From: Desulfuromonas sp. CSMB_57
Lineage (GTDB): Bacteria > Desulfobacterota > Desulfuromonadia > Desulfuromonadales > Syntrophotaleaceae
Length of the DNA: 64,000 bases
Assembly: GCF_020194955.2 (NCBI RefSeq)
Contig: NZ_JAFCIY020000001.1
Span: forward strand, 124,001 to 188,000
Direction of reading: 5' to 3'
The translations under genes and the position numbers were made by a program. This document shows positions 2 to 62,015 of this stretch, piece after piece; within the stretch, counting starts at the first letter, position 1; every line of letters starts with the position of its first letter. The notes beneath the pieces were generated by a model. The model worked only from the letters and a program-made list of their open reading frames with translations. It had not been told where the DNA came from and made no database searches.

Positions 2-1585
2 CGGTACAACATCACCCTGCGGGACGACAAGACCTACCTGTCCCTGCGCCTCGATCCGGCCGAGGAATTTCCGACCCTGCAACTGGTCCGCAAGGTCGTG
101 CGGGACGGTGCCCGCTATTTCGGTCCCTATTCCTCTGCCGCCGCGGTGCGGGCCACATTGAAGGAAATCTTCCGGATTTTCCCCTTGCGCCGCCATCCGT
201 TGGAAGCCTGCCGGCGTCGCAGCCGTCCCTGTCTGTATTTTCAGCTTGGTCAGTGCAGCGGTCCCTGCCATGGTGCCATCAGCCCTGAAGACTATGGGCA
301 GATGGTGGCCGGCGCCCTGGCGCTGCTGTCCGGCCGGGAAAGCGAGGTAATGACCCTGCTGCGGCAGCGCATGGCGGAAGCGGCCGGACGCCTGGCCTAT
401 GAGGAGGCCGCTCGCTGCCGGGATCAGATTCGCGCCATCGAGCAGACCATTGAACGGCAGAAGGTGGTGGAGGCCGGGGCCGGTGATCAGGACGTGGTGG
501 GATTGTTCCGGCAGGGCGGGGAGGTGGAGGTGGCTTTGTTGTGCGTGCGCGAGGGCAAGCTCATCGATCGGCGCAGTTTCGTTCTGGAATGGCGCCTGGC
601 CGAGGAGGAACTATTGTCCTCCTTTTTGCAGCAGTTCTATGGTCGGGAGGTGTTCATTCCCGATCGTCTGCTGTTGCCCCTGCTGCCGGAGGATGCCCCT
701 GCCCTGGCGGAATGGCTGACGGAGTCGAAGGGCAGAAAGGTCGAGATCCTGGCCCCGCGGCGCGGTGTGCGGCGGTCGCTGGTCGAGATGGCGGCCCGCA
801 ATGCAGAAGAAAGTTTCCGCGAACGCGGCTCCCGCCAGGAGGCGCGGGAAGGGGTGTTGCGGGATATTTCCGAACGCCTGCAGCTGCATCGTCTGCCCCG
901 GCGCATGGAGTGTTTCGATATTTCCAACGTCCAGGGGCGTTTCAGTGTCGGAAGCATGGCGGTGCTGATCGACGGCGAGGCGGACAAGAGCGCCTATCGG
1001 CATTACCGTATCCGCACCGTGTCCGGCAGCGATGATTATGCCGCTCTTTATGAAGTTTTGCGCCGCCGACTGCGACGCGGGCTGCAGGAGCAATCGCTGC
1101 CCGATTTCATTCTCATCGACGGCGGCAAGGGACAGCTCGGTGTACTGCAGGCGGTTCTTGAGGAACTGCGGCTGGCGGACCGCATCGACGCGGCCGGTAT
1201 TGCCAAGAGCCGGGTGGTGGCCAATGTGCGGGGCAAGGCGGTGGAGCGCAGCGAGGAGCGTTTTTTCCTGCCCGGCCGCAAAAACCCGGTGATTCTGCCC
1301 CAGGGGTCGCCGGCTCTGTTCATGCTCCAGGGCCTCAGGGACGAGGCCCATCGTTTTGCCATCACCCGGCACCGCAAACTGCGCCGTCGCAGCACCCTGA
1401 CCTCCGTGCTGGAGGAGATTCCGGGGATCGGGCCGCGTCGCCGCCAGGCACTTCTGCGGCACTTCGGCAGTGTCAAACAGATTCAGGCTGCCGGGTTGGA
1501 AGACTTGCGGGCCATGCCGGGTTTGCCGGCCGAACTGGCAGAGCGTATTTTTTACGCCCTGCATGGTTCCCAGACCTCGGAATGA
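2..1585 (+). CDS. uvrC: UvrC, excinuclease ABC subunit C (5' truncated by window edge)
   Basis: This is the incision subunit of UvrABC nucleotide excision repair, which cuts the damaged strand on both sides of a lesion. The reading frame is open from base 2, so the gene starts before the window. What remains (about 527 residues) begins at the end of the GIY-YIG domain (YNITLRDDKTY, then ARYFGPY). It continues through a Cys-rich stretch (CRRRSRPCLYFQLGQCSGPC), the UVR motif (EEAARCRDQIRAIE) and the RNase H-like nuclease domain (FDISNVQG, ILIDGGKGQL), and ends in paired helix-hairpin-helix motifs (EEIPGIGPRRRQALL). About 75 N-terminal residues should be missing. The stop lies 9 bases before a palindromic CTAG-bounded element. 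The identification is secure. Confidence 0.97.
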   Translation, partial: RYNITLRDDKTYLSLRLDPAEEFPTLQLVRKVVRDGARYFGPYSSAAAVRATLKEIFRIFPLRRHPLEACRRRSRPCLYFQLGQCSGPCHGAISPEDYGQMVAGALALLSGRESEVMTLLRQRMAEAAGRLAYEEAARCRDQIRAIEQTIERQKVVEAGAGDQDVVGLFRQGGEVEVALLCVREGKLIDRRSFVLEWRLAEEELLSSFLQQFYGREVFIPDRLLLPLLPEDAPALAEWLTESKGRKVEILAPRRGVRRSLVEMAARNAEESFRERGSRQEAREGVLRDISERLQLHRLPRRMECFDISNVQGRFSVGSMAVLIDGEADKSAYRHYRIRTVSGSDDYAALYEVLRRRLRRGLQEQSLPDFILIDGGKGQLGVLQAVLEELRLADRIDAAGIAKSRVVANVRGKAVERSEERFFLPGRKNPVILPQGSPALFMLQGLRDEAHRFAITRHRKLRRRSTLTSVLEEIPGIGPRRRQALLRHFGSVKQIQAAGLEDLRAMPGLPAELAERIFYALHGSQTSE

Positions 1586-8833: not shown

Positions 8834-10474
8834 TCAGTCGATGTGTTGCAGAATGACGAACCTGCGGTACAGCCAGCCTCCGGCATAGAAGGTGATGCCG
8901 ACCACCACCAGGCAACCGATGCGCATCAGCGGGGCGGCCCGGTCAAGATCGAAGAACACCAGCTTGACGGCAGAAAGGGCAAATACCAGCAGGGAAGATT
9001 GGCCCAGAAGACGATCCCGCCGGATGCCGGCCAGGGCCAGGCAGGCCAGGGCCAAAACACCCCATGCCAGGGATATGGCCAAACGACTGTCAAAGATCTG
9101 GCTGGCGGCGGCCATGGCCGCCAGGTGCCCGAGGCTGAGCAGGGCGATGCCAAGGTGCGGCAACCTGGATTGCCGCTGACGGGCAAACAGGTATCCGGCG
9201 TATAGCGTCACGGTAAAGGCCGAGGTCAACAGGGGGCGTGCGGGGACCACCGGCAGGTGGCGGTTGGCAATGGCTGCCAGAAAATTGACCGACCAGACCG
9301 ATCCCAAGCCCGCCAGCAGCGGCCAGTCTCCGCTTTTGCTGTGGTGTGGCCAGCGCAGCCAACAGGCCGCCAGCGGCACGGCCAGCAAGGCGGCCCACGG
9401 CTGCCAGCGGGTCGGCAGCAGTACCAGGTAGCCGGAATGAAACAGGGCCATGGCGGCGTAAAAGCTGACCAACAGCCTGCCGCCGGGCAAAGGTACGCGC
9501 AGCGCCAGGCGCGGCACCAGGAACAGGATCCAGAAGGGCAGGATGCTTGCCAGGGCCAGCCATGCGGTCAGCCGCGGCAGGTGGCTGCCAAGGACACTGA
9601 ACTGAAACAGGTAGAAAAGGGCTACCGCCGGCAGGTGGAACAGAGCTGCAGGAATATCCAGAGGACGTCGGTGGCGGAGAGTGAAGGCGGCGGTCCAGGT
9701 TGCGAACAGGGTTGCCTGACCGGCCTGCACCAGGCCAAGGGTCCGCCAATGCAAGGGGGCAACGATGTACCAGAGCAACTGAAATCCGAGCAGGCCCAGG
9801 TAGAGGGCCGCCAGGTAATAGCGACGTCGGCCGGTCCAGAGGGAAAACAGTCCGAAGCCGATGCCCCAGGCGCCGTAGAACAGGGCGATGCGCCCCAGAT
9901 CGCGGGACCCGGAATGGAGCAGAAAGGGCGCGGAGTAGGAGCCCAGCACCGCAAACAAGGCATAGAGGTCGCTGGCAAATAAACGGCACAGCAGCAGGGA
10001 GCCGACGCAGACCACCAGAATGCCGGCACCCGTCGGCAACGGTCCGATGAGGTGGTAGTGCAGATGGGCAGCATATAGGGTCAGAAACAAAATGACCATG
10101 CCGGCGGCCGGCAGCAGGCCGGCGTAACCGCGGTCGTTTCGGCGCAGTGCCAAACCGGTGGCGATGAGGGAACCGGCACCCAGCACCGCCAGGGCGAGTT
10201 GCCGTAGGGGCGTCAACCAGCCCGTATCCACCGCCAGCTTGATCAGGTAGGCCGCGGCCAGCACCAGCAGCATGGCGCCGCACCAGCCCAGCAGCCCGGT
10301 GACGGGATTGCCGCGGTGCTTCGGTGAAGCATCCGGTGTCTCCGGTGTCGCCGGCGGGCTGAAGGTAAACCGGGGTTCCTCGGCCGGCGGCGGCAGGCAG
10401 GTCATGCCCAAATGGTCTTCTATCTGCTGAAGTCGCTTCTCCAGGGTGTCCAGCCGTTTATGTACATCGTCCAT
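8834..10474 (-). CDS. DUF2339 polytopic membrane protein
   Basis: A 546-residue integral membrane protein. The N-terminus is a short coiled coil (VHKRLDTLEKRLQQIEDHLG) and a Pro-rich linker. About 14 hydrophobic helices follow, rich in Leu and Ala, with the family-typical stretches LLGWCGAMLLVLAAAYLIKLAVDTGWL and LYAAHLHYHLIGPLPTG near the first helices. DUF2339 proteins are predicted membrane proteins of unknown function. The start at 10474 follows GGAGGG by five bases. This is the first gene of the minus-strand run that continues to the LapA gene. Confidence 0.85.
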   Translation of the reverse strand: MDDVHKRLDTLEKRLQQIEDHLGMTCLPPPAEEPRFTFSPPATPETPDASPKHRGNPVTGLLGWCGAMLLVLAAAYLIKLAVDTGWLTPLRQLALAVLGAGSLIATGLALRRNDRGYAGLLPAAGMVILFLTLYAAHLHYHLIGPLPTGAGILVVCVGSLLLCRLFASDLYALFAVLGSYSAPFLLHSGSRDLGRIALFYGAWGIGFGLFSLWTGRRRYYLAALYLGLLGFQLLWYIVAPLHWRTLGLVQAGQATLFATWTAAFTLRHRRPLDIPAALFHLPAVALFYLFQFSVLGSHLPRLTAWLALASILPFWILFLVPRLALRVPLPGGRLLVSFYAAMALFHSGYLVLLPTRWQPWAALLAVPLAACWLRWPHHSKSGDWPLLAGLGSVWSVNFLAAIANRHLPVVPARPLLTSAFTVTLYAGYLFARQRQSRLPHLGIALLSLGHLAAMAAASQIFDSRLAISLAWGVLALACLALAGIRRDRLLGQSSLLVFALSAVKLVFFDLDRAAPLMRIGCLVVVGITFYAGGWLYRRFVILQHID

Positions 10475-57207: not shown

Positions 57208-58560
57208 GTGGCGGGAAAAATTCGGGAAATGATCGATACCATCATTCAGCAACGGGCCGGCGGCAATCCGATGCTGGAGCGCATCGTCAAGACCAAACTC
57301 ATCCTCAAAGGGATCAACCCGGCTCGTTTCACGCCACAGTCCGAGGATGATCCGACGGTTATGGCCTGTCTCGAGCAGTTTCTACAGGACTTACAGGGGG
57401 CGCCGGCGACCCAGGGTGCTCCCACCGCTGCTGTCGGCAGCGGTGCGGATGGCGAGTACTTTCATGTGGCCTGTTCCACCCAGACCGATTTGGCTGCCAG
57501 CGTAGCGGAAATAGCCGGACGGCTACAGCCCTGCAAGCCGGCCATGGTCCTGTTTTTTGCCGCCAGTCGTTTTGCGCCCGACGCCGTGGGCCGGCAGATG
57601 CAGGCGGCTTTTCCCGGTTCCCAGGTATTCGGCTGTTCCACTTCGGGAGAGTTGATGAGCGGCCGCATGCTTGATGGCGGCATGGTTGCCATGGCCTTTC
57701 ATCGACGGGCAGCGGGGGATGTTCGGGTGGAAGTGGTCGAAGGGCTGTCCAATGACCACGCCTTGCATAATGCCTTCGCTTCCTTTGCCAAACATTATCG
57801 AACCCCGGTAGCGGCCATGGATCCTGATGCCTACGTCGGACTGGTGTTGGTCGATGGCCTGCGCGGCGCCGAGGAACAGTTGATGGAAACCATCGGCGAT
57901 TTAACCGATGTCACGTTTGTCGGGGGCTCGGCCGGCGATGATCTGCAATTTTCCGCTACCCACGTTTATGCCAACGGCCGTTCCTATACCGATGCGGCGG
58001 TGTTGGCGCTGATGCGACCGGAGATCGGATTTTCCTTCATCAAGACCCAGAGCTTTCGGTCCTTGAATAAAACCTTGCGGGTCACCTGGGCGGATGAAGC
58101 CCGTCGCGAGGTGCTGGAGTTCGACGATCGGCCGGCCGCCGAAGCATACGCCGACGCCCTCGGTACCAGTGTCGAACAGGCCCCCGATTATTTCATGCGC
58201 AATCCGCTGGGGTTGATTGTTGAAGGCGAACCTTTCGTTCGCAGCCCGCAGCAGATCAAAGGCGGCACCATGTCCTTCTATTGCAGCATCCGGGAGGGCA
58301 TGGAACTCTCCCTGCTGGAATCGGGGAATATCGTCCAAGATACTAAAGTGGCGCTTGAAGAGGCCAAGCGGCGTATGGGAAGCATTTCCGCCGTGGTTAA
58401 TTTCAACTGCATTCTTCGAACCTTGGAACTGAAACAAAAACAGCTTACCGAAGACTATGGTGCCTTGTTTTCCGATATTCCCATGATCGGTTTCAGCACC
58501 TACGGGGAACAGTATATCGGGCATATCAATCAAACGGCCACCATGCTGGTTTTCAAGTAG
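57208..58560 (+). CDS. FIST-domain sensor protein
   Basis: A 450-residue cytoplasmic protein with FIST_N (about 90-280) and FIST_C (about 290-430) domains, which are predicted to bind small ligands such as amino acids. Signatures include VLFFAASRFAPDAVGRQMQAAFPGSQVFGCSTSGE, DVTFVGGSAGDDLQF and the C-terminal IPMIGFSTYGEQYIG. An additional N-terminal helical segment of about 65 residues (KIREMIDTIIQQRAGGNPML) precedes FIST_N. The GTG at 57208 follows AAGGAGG by seven bases. It is the first gene of a six-gene operon. No output domain (histidine kinase or GGDEF) is fused to it, so its signal must pass to partner proteins. Confidence 0.92.
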   Translation: MAGKIREMIDTIIQQRAGGNPMLERIVKTKLILKGINPARFTPQSEDDPTVMACLEQFLQDLQGAPATQGAPTAAVGSGADGEYFHVACSTQTDLAASVAEIAGRLQPCKPAMVLFFAASRFAPDAVGRQMQAAFPGSQVFGCSTSGELMSGRMLDGGMVAMAFHRRAAGDVRVEVVEGLSNDHALHNAFASFAKHYRTPVAAMDPDAYVGLVLVDGLRGAEEQLMETIGDLTDVTFVGGSAGDDLQFSATHVYANGRSYTDAAVLALMRPEIGFSFIKTQSFRSLNKTLRVTWADEARREVLEFDDRPAAEAYADALGTSVEQAPDYFMRNPLGLIVEGEPFVRSPQQIKGGTMSFYCSIREGMELSLLESGNIVQDTKVALEEAKRRMGSISAVVNFNCILRTLELKQKQLTEDYGALFSDIPMIGFSTYGEQYIGHINQTATMLVFK

Positions 58561-58631
58561 TCAATCCGCTTCAGGCGGCATGCACTGGCCTGCAGGTTTT
58601 CACCTTAGCCGGTTCTCGACAGGATTGATGT

Positions 58632-59408
58632 ATGAGCGATCAGTTTAAGCAGATACTGAGTTTGGAGCAGAAAGACGGCGGGCTGAAGGGGGATCTCTCA
58701 TCCACCAATATCGCCGACCTGCTGCAGTTTCTTTCCTCAAGCTCGAAGAAGGGTGTCATCAAGGTGGTGCGGCACCCCGACAAGGAGCAGGGACAAGTCT
58801 ATTTCGACGGCGGGGAGTTGGTATCCGCAACTTCCGGCAAGTTGACGGGGCTGACGGGATTCGCCGATCTGCTCGGCTGGCAGGAAGGTTCTTTTCGTTT
58901 TTTTCCGGGTGTTGATGCCCAGAACAGAACCGTCGGGCTGTCCGTTCAGCATGCCATTCTTGAGGCCATGGTGTCCATGGATCACGGAGCCGGTAATGTC
59001 AGGGAGCAGACTGCGGCCGTGATGGAAGAAAGGGGTAAGGATATGGAACAAGCCGTCAGGGGAGCAACCGAGGTCATGAATGATCTGCTGGAGGTCCCCG
59101 GAATCGATGCGGTGGTGATCGTCGGTCGGGATGGGTTCGTCATCGATTCCACCGGCAGCAGTCTGCGGGTGAACATCGACGTGCTCGGCGCTTCTCTGGC
59201 TCATGCGGTCAACGGCATCGAAGAAATGGGTTCGGAATTGAGTATCGATCACTTCCAGGACCTGTTCATCGAATATGGCCGTTCGGTCATCATGTGCAAA
59301 CCGGTGGGGGATGCCATTGCCGCGGTGGTGACGCCGGATGCCTCGAAGTTGGGCATTATCCGCCATAAAACCAAGAAACTGTTTCTTGAGTTGGGACAGT
59401 CCTTCTAG
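58632..59408 (+). CDS. DUF4388 (PATAN-like) + roadblock/LC7 protein
   Basis: A 258-residue protein with an N-terminal DUF4388 domain (LKGDLSSTNIADLLQFLSSSSKKGVIKVV, VYFDGGELVSA) of about 15-110 and a C-terminal roadblock/LC7 domain (about 140-255; LEVPGIDAVVIVGRDGFVIDST). In Myxococcus, roadblock proteins such as MglB act on the MglA GTPase, and DUF4388 occurs with response regulators and polarity proteins. No MglA gene is in the window. It follows the FIST gene and precedes the two V4R-like genes. Confidence 0.9.
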   Translation: MSDQFKQILSLEQKDGGLKGDLSSTNIADLLQFLSSSSKKGVIKVVRHPDKEQGQVYFDGGELVSATSGKLTGLTGFADLLGWQEGSFRFFPGVDAQNRTVGLSVQHAILEAMVSMDHGAGNVREQTAAVMEERGKDMEQAVRGATEVMNDLLEVPGIDAVVIVGRDGFVIDSTGSSLRVNIDVLGASLAHAVNGIEEMGSELSIDHFQDLFIEYGRSVIMCKPVGDAIAAVVTPDASKLGIIRHKTKKLFLELGQSF

Positions 59409-59420
59409 GAGGGTGAGCAA

Positions 59421-59936
59421 GTGTCTTTGGAATTGAATTTTTCTTTGGATGACAAGACCTTTCGGAATTTTTTGAACGGTCATCCGGTGGTGCGGCATTC
59501 TCACCATTACCTGTGCCTGATTACCAAGCTGGTGGAGGATTTGAGCGATATCGGCGGGCCGCAAATTTTGGCCGAAGTGGTGGAGGATTCCATTCGAACC
59601 GTGCTGGACGATTATTTCCAGCAACAGGGAACCCTGTCCGAAGACGAGCGGATGCGTATCGGTGAAGCCTATTTCGCCACCTTCGGCCTTGGCAAAATGG
59701 CGGCTTCCGGCGACCGTACGGGTGGCGAAGTGCGTTTACAGCGCTCCCATCTCGATGAAGGATGGCGCATGAAATGGGGGGAGCGGGACCGGCCGGTCAA
59801 TTACCTTGCCTGCGGTTTTGCGGCTGCCCTGTTCGGCGCGGCTTTCGGCCTGCCGGCCAGAAGTTTTGCGGTCACGGAACAGGAAGGGATGGTCATGGGA
59901 GCGCCGGAGAGTCGGTTCATCGTCCGGGCTGCTTGA
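59421..59936 (+). CDS. V4R-like domain protein, first copy
   Basis: A 171-residue protein. The C-terminal half resembles V4R (4-vinyl reductase-type) small-molecule-binding domains: FGLGKMAASGDRTGGEVRLQRSHLDEGW, then YLACGFAAALFGAAFGLPARSFAVTEQEG and MGAPESRFIV. An N-terminal His cluster (VVRHSHHYLCL) could bind metal. GTG start at 59421 with GGAGG eight bases upstream, twelve bases after the previous stop. Family assignment rests on motif spacing, so moderate confidence. Confidence 0.65.
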   Translation: MSLELNFSLDDKTFRNFLNGHPVVRHSHHYLCLITKLVEDLSDIGGPQILAEVVEDSIRTVLDDYFQQQGTLSEDERMRIGEAYFATFGLGKMAASGDRTGGEVRLQRSHLDEGWRMKWGERDRPVNYLACGFAAALFGAAFGLPARSFAVTEQEGMVMGAPESRFIVRAA

Positions 59937-59951
59937 GGAAGGAATGAAATA

Positions 59952-60533
59952 ATGACGGTAATGCGCGACACCGTGGTGAAGAGCCTGGCCAAGGTAACGG
60001 TCCAGGGGGATGAAAACGGCCTGATTCCCGAATATGAAGTGTTGGTCAATCTGCTGCCGGTTGCCTTGCTGAACAGCTTTGCCGAACGGATTATGGCCGC
60101 GGCGCCGCCGGAGCGTAAAGCCGAGGTTGAGGCCGGACTGGTGCGGGCGGCCTATGAATGCGGTTATCATACGGGCTGCGGCATCATTACCTCCGAATCT
60201 TTTAATGAAGCGGTCATGCCCATGGTCACCGAAGGGGCCAAGGACATTCTGCGCGGCGCCTATGCGGCCTTTACCGCCTGGGGCTGGGCCAAAGCCGGCA
60301 TCGTACAGCTCAAGGAAGGTGAGCGGATGGTTATCCGAGCCTTTGATTATTACGAGGCGGACAGCGGCGGGGAAGGGTTGCGAGCCTACATGTTTCGGGG
60401 GTTGAGTCAGGCCTTTTTCGACCTGGCTTATGCCGATCCCTACCCGGACGGCATGGATACCTATGTCTGTCAGCAGACCAAGGGGCTTGAAGTCGGAGAT
60501 CCCTATGGCGAGTTCATCGTCACCAAAAAATAG
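59952..60533 (+). CDS. V4R-like domain protein, second copy
   Basis: A 193-residue protein with the same C-terminal layout as the preceding gene (AFTAWGWAKAGIVQLKEGERMVIRAFDYYEA, then YMFRGLSQAFFDLAYA and CQQTKGLEVGDPYGEFIV). It has an extra N-terminal region and two Cys residues in YECGYHTGCGI. V4R domains bind hydrocarbons, haem-like or other small ligands and often act as sensors. The two copies are adjacent paralogues that could heterodimerise. The ATG follows GAAGGA. Confidence 0.65.
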   Translation: MTVMRDTVVKSLAKVTVQGDENGLIPEYEVLVNLLPVALLNSFAERIMAAAPPERKAEVEAGLVRAAYECGYHTGCGIITSESFNEAVMPMVTEGAKDILRGAYAAFTAWGWAKAGIVQLKEGERMVIRAFDYYEADSGGEGLRAYMFRGLSQAFFDLAYADPYPDGMDTYVCQQTKGLEVGDPYGEFIVTKK

Positions 60534-60634
60534 CGCCTATCCTGCCAAGGATTTCTCCGGGATTAGCGCAGATAACGGGTGACGGCAGTCGCAAGGCGGC
60601 ACTTCCGTCGTCATATCCGGAAGCGGAGCAAAAG

Positions 60635-61450
60635 ATGTCCAACGTTATTTCCATTGTGAGTTCAAAAGGCGGAGCGGGCAAGACGACCGTGGCTCTCAAC
60701 CTGGCGGTGGCGCTGGCCGAGAGTCGGGAGCCGACTCTGCTCATCGACGTGGACCCTCTGGGTGGTATCGGTTTTTCCCTGGCCCGCAGCGATACGGAGT
60801 GGAAAGGGTTGGCGGAATGCCTGGTGCAGGAAGCAGCCATCGGCGAAGTGGTCATGCCGACCAAACTGCCCGGTCTCTCCATCTTGCCGCGCGGGCGTCT
60901 GGACCCTCTGGATGTGGCCGCCTATGAACAGGCGCTTCACTCATCATCGGTTCTGGAGGACGTGCTCGCCGCCGTTGCCGGCGACTATCGCTACATAATC
61001 ATCGACACTCCGTCGGGGCTAGGTCAGATTACCCGTATGGCTCTGTCCGTCAGCGACTTTGCTCTGCTGCCCCTGCAGGCCGAGCCCATGGCGCTGCGGG
61101 CCATTACCCAGACCCTGCGGGTCCTGCAACATGTGCGTGAAGAGGAAAACCCCGATTTGCACCTGCTCGGCATCCTCGCCGTGATGGTGGAGTTGAGCCG
61201 GGATGTTTCTTTTTCCATCATGAATACGGCCTGGTCCTCCCTCAGCGGGGTGCTGGAAACCTACATACCCCGTGCGGAAGTGTTCAGCATGGCCAGTGAG
61301 AAGGGGTTGCCGGTGGCCTTTCTGCCAGGGAAATATCCACCCGAAGCGGCGCGCTTCGATATTCTGGCCAATGAGGTGAAAGGCCTGATTCACAGCCTGG
61401 GTGGCGAGACAGGAGACGACCATGAAAGACCGCAACGTGAACTCGTATGA
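60635..61450 (+). CDS. ParA/MinD-family ATPase
   Basis: A 271-residue deviant Walker ATPase. Deviant Walker A is SSKGGAGKTTVALNLA (signature Lys11, catalytic Lys16). Walker A' is LIDVDPLGG, and the third motif is YIIIDTPSGLGQITRMAL. There is no ParB or chromosome-partition partner in the window. MinD-like C-terminal amphipathic helix is not evident. In this operon it could position the roadblock/V4R/FIST proteins in the cell. It overlaps the next gene by 29 bases. Confidence 0.9.
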   Translation: MSNVISIVSSKGGAGKTTVALNLAVALAESREPTLLIDVDPLGGIGFSLARSDTEWKGLAECLVQEAAIGEVVMPTKLPGLSILPRGRLDPLDVAAYEQALHSSSVLEDVLAAVAGDYRYIIIDTPSGLGQITRMALSVSDFALLPLQAEPMALRAITQTLRVLQHVREEENPDLHLLGILAVMVELSRDVSFSIMNTAWSSLSGVLETYIPRAEVFSMASEKGLPVAFLPGKYPPEAARFDILANEVKGLIHSLGGETGDDHERPQRELV

Positions 61451-62015
61451 CCTGAAGCAGGCGCAGCAGATCCTCAGTGCCCTGGCTCCGGCTGCCGTGA
61501 CCGTTGCCCGCAAGAAGGCCGCCATTCAGGCACAGGCCGCTTTTCTGAAGTTTCCCCAGCGGCCGATGCAGGCCCTCTCCGGTTCCGTCTCGGTGGCCTG
61601 CCCGACGACCGCCGCCGGCCAAGCCGAGCAGCTTGCGCCGCCGGAGACTATCAGAACATGGGATGACTGCATTCGCTGGTGCCTGGAAGCAACCCGGTCC
61701 CATGCTGCTTTTGTGGTGGATTCCCAGGGATTTATCATCGCCAGTCAGGGGCTGATTCCCGAGGCCGGCTTCGAATGCACCGGGGCCGAAATGATCTGCT
61801 CCCTGGAGCAGTTGGAGCGTATCGATCCGGAAGCCGGAAAGTTGCTCTGGATCGATCTGGACTACGGCCAACGGCGCATTGCCGGCCTGGTAACGCCTTC
61901 GAATACGGCCGAGTATTTTATCGTTGGCCTGGTATCGCCGGATTCATTCCGGTTTTTTGCCCACAAGGCCCTCATCACCAGCAAGATCCTGGAAAACCTG
62001 CCCCATATCGATTAG
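61422..62015 (+). CDS. Roadblock/LC7-like protein
   Basis: A 197-residue protein with a predicted disordered, Ala/Pro-rich N-terminus (about 1-80) and a C-terminal roadblock-like domain (WDDCIRWCLEATRSHAAFVVDSQGFIIASQGL, then RRIAGLVTPSNTAEYFIVGLV). The core beta-helix pattern fits roadblock/LC7 although sequence similarity is weak. The ATG at 61422 follows AGGAG by six bases within the end of the ParA-like gene, so the two are translationally coupled. It is the last gene of the operon. Confidence 0.75.
   Translation: MKDRNVNSYDLKQAQQILSALAPAAVTVARKKAAIQAQAAFLKFPQRPMQALSGSVSVACPTTAAGQAEQLAPPETIRTWDDCIRWCLEATRSHAAFVVDSQGFIIASQGLIPEAGFECTGAEMICSLEQLERIDPEAGKLLWIDLDYGQRRIAGLVTPSNTAEYFIVGLVSPDSFRFFAHKALITSKILENLPHID

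Follow-up and report, generated by a model that had tools for sequence, protein, structure and literature searches.

A conserved cluster of FIST, V4R-like, roadblock and orphan ParA genes, a candidate signalling and positioning unit

Roadblock proteins have been described above all for their control of Ras-like GTPases; in the conservons of Streptomyces they accompany a kinase-like protein, a DUF742 protein and a GTPase. In V4R sensors a set of three cysteines holds zinc. Three conserved cysteines are common to the V4R sensors of phenol (PMC5847659). NosP-type FIST proteins bind heme and sense nitric oxide (NO), and kinases are frequently encoded alongside them (PMC12570481). For the partners of ParA/MinD ATPases, action through disordered and positively charged N-termini has been shown or suggested (PMC10241942). 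We analyzed a locus that recalls all of these systems. It lies at positions 57208-62015 of a window of 64,000 nucleotides (nt), i.e. the whole stretch of DNA under analysis, from Desulfuromonas sp. CSMB_57. Six genes of the + strand encode there, in this order, a NosP-like FIST protein, a DUF4388 (PATAN)-roadblock protein, two V4R-like proteins (V4Ra and V4Rb), an orphan ParA and a second roadblock protein (RB2).

Like the ParA/MinD systems of cargo positioning (McdAB, ParC/ParP, PpfA, ParABS; PMC10241942), the cluster sets a ParA with a deviant Walker A motif beside a protein built of a peptide, a linker and a domain; unlike them, this putative partner carries a roadblock domain and the sensors belong to the gene set. 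Roadblock proteins also form part of the MglA/MglB/MglC polarity module, from which the cluster differs by its ParA and because tblastn (E <= 1e-3) with the MglA-like GTPase of the genome finds nothing in the 22 cluster loci. The FIST protein matches the NosP profile almost end to end but, in contrast to the proteins of NosP-NosK/NahK signalling by NO and heme, scores far under the NosP cut-off, and the cluster of the window has no kinase. The V4R-like proteins are homologous to the V4R sensors of the MopR and PoxR type, and the same V4Ra-V4Rb gene pair is found in loci with a histidine kinase; the cluster pair, unlike these, lost three cysteines in both proteins and has no kinase adjacent. 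As in conservons, a multi-gene set with roadblock proteins is conserved, but the kinase-like protein, DUF742 and GTPase of conservons have no match in the six proteins of the window. Among the matches listed in the open PubMed Central literature (titles and starts of abstracts, subscription papers falling mostly outside), none describes a system with this six-gene set, in agreement with the initial annotation of the locus, which was made from the sequence alone. The domains are all known ones. What appears new is their combination, the pairing of a roadblock gene with a ParA gene, and the swap of a kinase for a ParA next to the V4R pair.

The gene order is kept beyond chance. The succession FIST, DUF4388-roadblock, V4Ra, V4Rb, ParA and RB2, with a seventh gene between V4Rb and ParA in 13 of the 22 loci, is found within contig reach in 22 loci including the window, with one exception for ParA and RB2 (L017, below); they belong to three families of one class, and all 22 have the DUF4388-roadblock gene. 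Thus the cluster is conserved beyond the strain, a point on which the initial annotation had made its proposal depend. A single-sequence search found V4Rb in 11 of 98 related genomes (own genome included), all of the window's own family; this family had 14 members in the search, and the three without a match are genomes 67-86% complete. With a profile, 23 of 277 class genomes were positive, spread over the three families; V4Rb also occurs in sixteen genome contig records, all metagenome-assembled genomes (MAGs) labelled Geobacter, Geobacteraceae, Pelobacter, Desulfuromonadales, Desulfuromonadaceae or Deltaproteobacteria. The 22 loci come from these 23 class genomes, G196 being omitted (its contig ends inside V4Rb), and two loci are truncated by contig ends (L055 and L015). 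Since the loci were picked by V4Rb, the conservation with V4Rb is partly by construction, and the independent check is a separate search for RB2: it was found in 21 of the 277 genomes, 20 of which are among the 23 carrying V4Rb. V4Rb occurs without RB2 in G003, G195 and G196, and RB2 without V4Rb in G012 only; in G195, G196 and G012 the genes sit on contigs of 3.5-7.7 kilobases (kb).

In a midpoint-rooted tree of the six concatenated proteins (1457 columns) the family of the window stays together, and a genome of family f24 (G186, locus L060) is placed with high support inside family f25. Because of this placement, the unit has probably been transferred as a whole at least once. The members of the cluster diverge to different extents: in the aligned cluster rows the identity to the window is 81-91% for V4Rb, vs 64-76% for ParA, 50-60% for V4Ra and 36-50% for RB2. 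The place of V4Rb as the most conserved member would suit a protein with several partners.

Pfam V4R matches neither V4Ra nor V4Rb of the window, nor the pair of L087. Distant V4Ra orthologues (32.6 and 40.3 bits) and the pair of L131 (35.0 and 37.1 bits) exceed its cut-off of 31; V4Rb of L091 and L093 reach 25.9 and 25.8 bits, under the cut-off. The V4Ra profile weakly matches solved V4R structures (MJ1460, 2osd, E 7e-4; MopR, 0.21; the phenol regulator 5fru, 0.48), and that of V4Rb matches only MopR (E 0.21). We assign the proteins to V4R because of the distant orthologues and of these weak structural matches. Their paralogy is drawn from the Pfam V4R matches of both in distant loci and from a wider V4Rb profile, which picked up the adjacent V4Ra in four genomes (G458, G348, G386 and G389); the direct hhalign comparison of V4Ra with V4Rb is weak (4.9% and 8.4%). 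Nearly all V4Ra sequences retain an HxHHY stretch; H26 and H28 do not vary across 29 rows.

Outside the cluster the V4R pair has other partners. The V4Rb profile detects 12 of 395 genomes of the phylum, own genome included, with V4Ra directly upstream in all 11 others; the wider profile detects 17, and among the five extra genomes G389 is a clear match (E 4.9e-31), the other four being weak ones. By this distribution the pair appears at least wider than the cluster, and may be older. In eight of the 11 distant loci the end of V4Rb adjoins or overlaps a gene for a PAS-containing histidine kinase (each confirmed by Pfam); in L088, L089 and L090 the kinase is followed by a LuxR-type response regulator (confirmed). 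Immediately before V4Ra, the kinase-linked loci L088, L089, L090 and L092 (4 of 11) carry a gene for ATP:corrinoid adenosyltransferase, confirmed in each, which hints at a corrinoid or tetrapyrrole as ligand. Locus L096 is cut by a contig end. In L086 a receiver-DUF4388-roadblock protein is encoded just upstream of the pair and a roadblock protein just downstream, an apparent intermediate between the kinase-linked and ParA-linked forms.

We then compared three cysteines with the kinase-linked pair of L093 as reference (V4Ra 132, 161 and 169; V4Rb 150, 183 and 191), their choice as the V4R set being a reading from motif position. All three are conserved in the eight kinase-linked rows of V4Ra and of V4Rb, as well as in V4Ra of L096. 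None is a cysteine in the 18 V4Ra and 17 V4Rb rows available from the 22 cluster loci, nor in L086 and L087. The residues found instead in the ParA clusters are N/(S,G,A)/(S,G) in V4Ra and (A,G)/G/G in V4Rb.

The ATPase agrees with the ParA/MinD signature. Its closest solved relatives are chromosomal ParA/Soj-type proteins, the nearest being 8ray (E 1.3e-30), which we take to be the ParA of Myxococcus xanthus because this code occurs in PMC12462528. A chromosome-partition ParA with its own ParB elsewhere was a possibility that the initial annotation had left to be checked. We reject this identity: the protein is 33% identical to the chromosomal ParA of the genome, which sits between MnmG/GidA and ParB, and ParB, which a ParABS system would have adjacent, finds no match among the six proteins of the window. 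Elsewhere the genome has a ParA-ParB pair and a roadblock/Ras-like GTPase pair.

RB2 is predicted to have a roadblock fold. It matches no Pfam family (Robl_LC7 stays below its cut-off, and one relative gives only LAMTOR5, E 0.2) and has no usable sequence match in the PDB (best E 1). The predicted model, with ten-residue means of the predicted local distance difference test (pLDDT) of 67-93 over the domain, is nearest to MglB (Foldseek E 7.8e-6; VIA Z 12.3, root-mean-square deviation 2.8, 114 aligned), followed by bacteriophytochrome chains (VIA Z 9.3-9.9), and hhalign gives a probability of 59.7% against the DUF4388-roadblock family. The mean fraction of the majority residue is 0.74 over residues 1-20 and 0.72 over 76-197, vs 0.35 in the linker (21-75). 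By analogy with the positioning partners RB2 is a candidate partner protein of ParA.

We tentatively favour, with slightly less than an even chance, a reading in which the cluster is one cytoplasmic signalling-and-positioning machine, its ligand-sensing module driving positioning by the roadblock proteins and ParA. V4Ra and V4Rb would form a heteromer that binds a small ligand; a second input, possibly linked to heme, would come from the FIST protein. The DUF4388-roadblock protein, with the seventh protein where present, would receive the signal and pair with RB2 through the roadblock domains. RB2 would then act as the partner of ParA, its N-terminal peptide engaging the ParA dimer at the end of a flexible linker and stimulating ATP hydrolysis; ParA would thereby place or disperse the sensor/adaptor complex or a client. 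As to origin, an older V4R pair feeding histidine kinases may have been joined to a roadblock/ParA output instead. What the sequences show in favour of this reading is the conserved gene set, the paired V4R genes with their change of neighbours, the missing cysteines, and the predicted fold and build of RB2; the contacts between the proteins, the ligand, the evolutionary direction and the positioning are inferred from these.

A bolder form of this reading, which we regard as rather doubtful, makes the cluster the first ligand-gated intracellular positioning system with a roadblock protein as ParA partner: the V4R pair, detached from kinases and having lost its cysteine (probable metal) site, would be rewired via PATAN-roadblock adaptors, and a small molecule, perhaps a tetrapyrrole or corrinoid, would decide the placement of cargo. 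The tie between roadblock and ParA, if true, would mean a new class of ParA partner and a direct link of small-molecule sensing to cell organisation. The occurrence of one sensor pair in a kinase-linked and a ParA-linked form, and in a locus that appears intermediate, is also a natural experiment in the change of output of a sensory module.

Several observations weigh against the positioning machine. In locus L131, which lies next to a cysteine-desulfurase-like gene and has no called kinase, both proteins match V4R and keep the cysteines by eye (this locus is outside the alignment used for cysteine tracking); the loss of cysteines therefore marks the group formed by the ParA-linked loci, L086 and L087, and not the absence of a kinase. 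The SRGAE stretch of the genome's chromosomal ParA reads PPEA in the cluster ParA, so that any DNA binding by the latter is conjectural. The signature lysine is kept in 14 of 15 cluster ParA rows and is N in L016 (SSNGG). The N-terminal peptide of RB2 is of mixed charge and not clearly basic; since it is conserved but mixed, the likeness to ParA partners is a fit of build, not proof. In L017 (genome G003) the ParA match ends mid-contig after about 35 codons, near 9569-9700, and RB2 is missing, the remaining genes being present. The window FIST protein reaches 265.9 bits against NosP (NF041558, cut-off 450), so heme or NO is only a lead for the cluster FIST. The domain assignment of the seventh gene is weak: it was called roadblock-like and PATAN-like by eye and from a single DUF4388 match below threshold (L054, 19.5 bits, cut-off 25; the copy of L018 has none). 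Lastly, same-strand GGDEF genes upstream of four loci, described below, leave room for a link to cyclic di-GMP (c-di-GMP) in part of the family.

Two of these loci call for a separate remark. The ATPase of L016, with its substituted lysine, may be defective. The defect of G003, on a MAG contig of 44 kb, may be a genuine loss or a misjoin of the MAG.

The main rival, in our view unlikely, takes the ATPase for a non-spatial switch of the FlhG/BcsQ type, which would gate an enzyme or regulator on the V4R/FIST signal with the roadblock proteins as scaffold; the gated target would in some genomes perhaps be a c-di-GMP enzyme. BcsQ is indeed the top NCBIfam match of the ATPase (TIGR03371), but at 89.4 bits it stays below the cut-off of 157.85, and the nearest solved relatives are of the chromosomal type. 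A switch would agree with the altered SRGAE stretch and with the flanks examined, which hold no cargo gene common to the three families: flanking families present in at least three loci are each confined to one bacterial family, except a generic receiver-domain group (several flanks being short). It agrees less well with RB2, whose succession of peptide, linker and domain is that of positioning partners.

The GGDEF genes upstream of some loci also speak for a switch. The initial annotation had proposed a possible output through the GGDEF and GGDEF-EAL proteins flanking the cluster. Eighteen loci extend 1 kb or more upstream of the cluster and allowed a comparison of upstream neighbours; L015, L021, L023 and L055, with less than 400 nt, were left out. 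A GGDEF-bearing gene on the same strand lies 0.3-0.6 kb upstream in four of the 18, namely the window and L061, L063 and L064 of family f25, and in none of the other 14. The architectures differ: the gene of the window has a GGDEF domain behind a long stretch without Pfam match, those of L061 (11440-13755, - strand) and L063 (2150-4414, + strand) encode receiver-PAS-GGDEF-EAL proteins 416 and 601 nt upstream, on the cluster's own strand, and the called frame of L064 is a GGDEF domain. In L024, L054 and L059 GGDEF genes are found 2.8-3.7 kb downstream. We therefore reject c-di-GMP output as a general function, these counts and architectures being against it; c-di-GMP may be the output in some genomes but is no constant part of the unit. 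Thus, of the earlier interpretation, a coherent conserved system with an ATPase other than the chromosomal ParA stands, and the GGDEF output is weak.

Another rival, which we hold improbable, has the roadblock proteins act on a Ras-like GTPase from outside the cluster, the MglA-like protein of the genome; the cluster would then be a branch of the MglA polarity network and ParA an accessory. The contig of the window carries, at L098:3650-4688, a Ras/Arf-like GTPase gene behind a roadblock match, a pair that we take to be MglB-MglA-like, and MglB provides the nearest folds to RB2; the lack of any match to the GTPase in the 22 cluster loci nevertheless disagrees with such a branch.

The least probable alternative, that two adjacent but separate operons (FIST-DUF4388-roadblock-V4Ra-V4Rb as sensor, and ParA-RB2 with or without the seventh gene) are co-inherited by linkage, could invoke the larger gaps, mostly between FIST and DUF4388-roadblock (up to 399 nt) and between V4Rb and the next gene (up to 204 nt; some starts are mechanical), and the V4R and roadblock genes without intact ParA in L086 and G003, but the two halves accompany each other in 20 genomes of the class, from three families, and RB2 lacks V4Rb only in G012, on a contig of 7.7 kb that also carries the seventh gene and ParA.

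The six co-oriented genes are all present at the positions first given for them (Table 1). Also correct were the distances given ahead of the two V4R genes (12 and 15 nt) and the start of the last gene within the ATPase gene, RB2 overlapping ParA by 29 nt when read from ATG 61422. This ATG is most likely the start, since a methionine is found at that place in 19 of 19 rows (the window and 18 relatives; the rows of the RB2 alignment were trimmed to it). Counted from this conserved methionine, the overlap is 29 nt in all 19 loci with both genes complete. To say that most genes join tightly was slightly generous: 71 nt separate FIST from DUF4388-roadblock and 101 nt V4Rb from ParA. The FIST start is a GTG behind AAGGAGG, and the proteins of relatives begin with MAGKI or similar. 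GTPase, ParB, kinase and receiver had been reported absent, and no Pfam match to them appears in the six proteins and the two flanking ones. A sigma-54-like motif is present within 320 nt upstream in only 2 of 20 loci, at differing positions.

Table 1. Genes of the cluster in the window, parts of RB2, and V4R loci associated with an aminotransferase
Feature	Coordinates	Strand	Evidence
FIST/NosP-like sensor protein, 450 aa	57208..58560	+	Pfam FIST and FIST_C; NCBIfam NosP below cut-off
DUF4388 (PATAN) and roadblock/LC7 protein, 258 aa	58632..59408	+	both Pfam families above cut-off
V4R-like protein a (V4Ra), 171 aa	59421..59936	+	distant orthologues above Pfam V4R cut-off, alignment, cysteine tracking
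V4R-like protein b (V4Rb), 193 aa	59952..60533	+	alignments, distant orthologues matching V4R, cysteine tracking
Orphan ParA-type ATPase, 271 aa	60635..61450	+	Pfam AAA_31 108.2 bits, deviant Walker A KGGAGKTT
RB2, second roadblock protein, 197 aa	61422..62015	+	predicted structure, Foldseek, VIA
RB2, conserved N-terminal peptide	residues 1-20		
RB2, variable linker			
RB2, roadblock domain	residues about 75-197		
Aminotransferase-associated V4R locus	L086:7249-8786		
Aminotransferase-associated V4R locus	L087:2170-3647		
Aminotransferase-associated V4R locus	L131:6459-7981		

The FIST protein scores 143.6 bits for FIST and 90.8 bits for FIST_C, without sequence match in the PDB; those of two relatives also stay below the NosP cut-off (284.7 and 272.2 bits). 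Its N-terminal ~63 residues form a separate small gene in 10 loci and are fused to FIST in 11, L055 being cut before this point; the fusion links a small protein of ~63 amino acids (aa) to FIST. A stand-alone relative of 63 aa (L019) matches no Pfam family. The DUF4388-roadblock protein reaches 69.6 bits for DUF4388 and 41.4 bits for Robl_LC7 (cut-off 23). The product of the seventh gene (290-312 aa) looks like a diverged DUF4388-plus-roadblock protein; its hhalign comparison with the DUF4388-roadblock family is weak (9.3%), and RB2 against it gives nothing (1.2%).

Two other readings were tried and rejected. A plasmid origin finds no match of V4Rb in 72,556 plasmid records, and for a defence system PADLOC gave only two weak matches of the ATPase (E 0.0033 and 0.011). 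The predicted model of V4Rb, made from 11 close rows, has a mean pLDDT of 46.3 and its fold matches were not used (best Z 5.3, 76 aligned; H-NOX at Z 3.2-3.8; no V4R among the best 50).

A last group of V4R loci is formed by L086, L087 and L131, from three families. Downstream of the V4R pair they carry a class-V aminotransferase gene (cysteine-desulfurase-like) and an unannotated gene of ~100 aa. In L131 (genome G389) an unannotated protein of 168 aa, possibly V4R-like by eye only, is encoded directly before V4Ra (L131:4744-5250).

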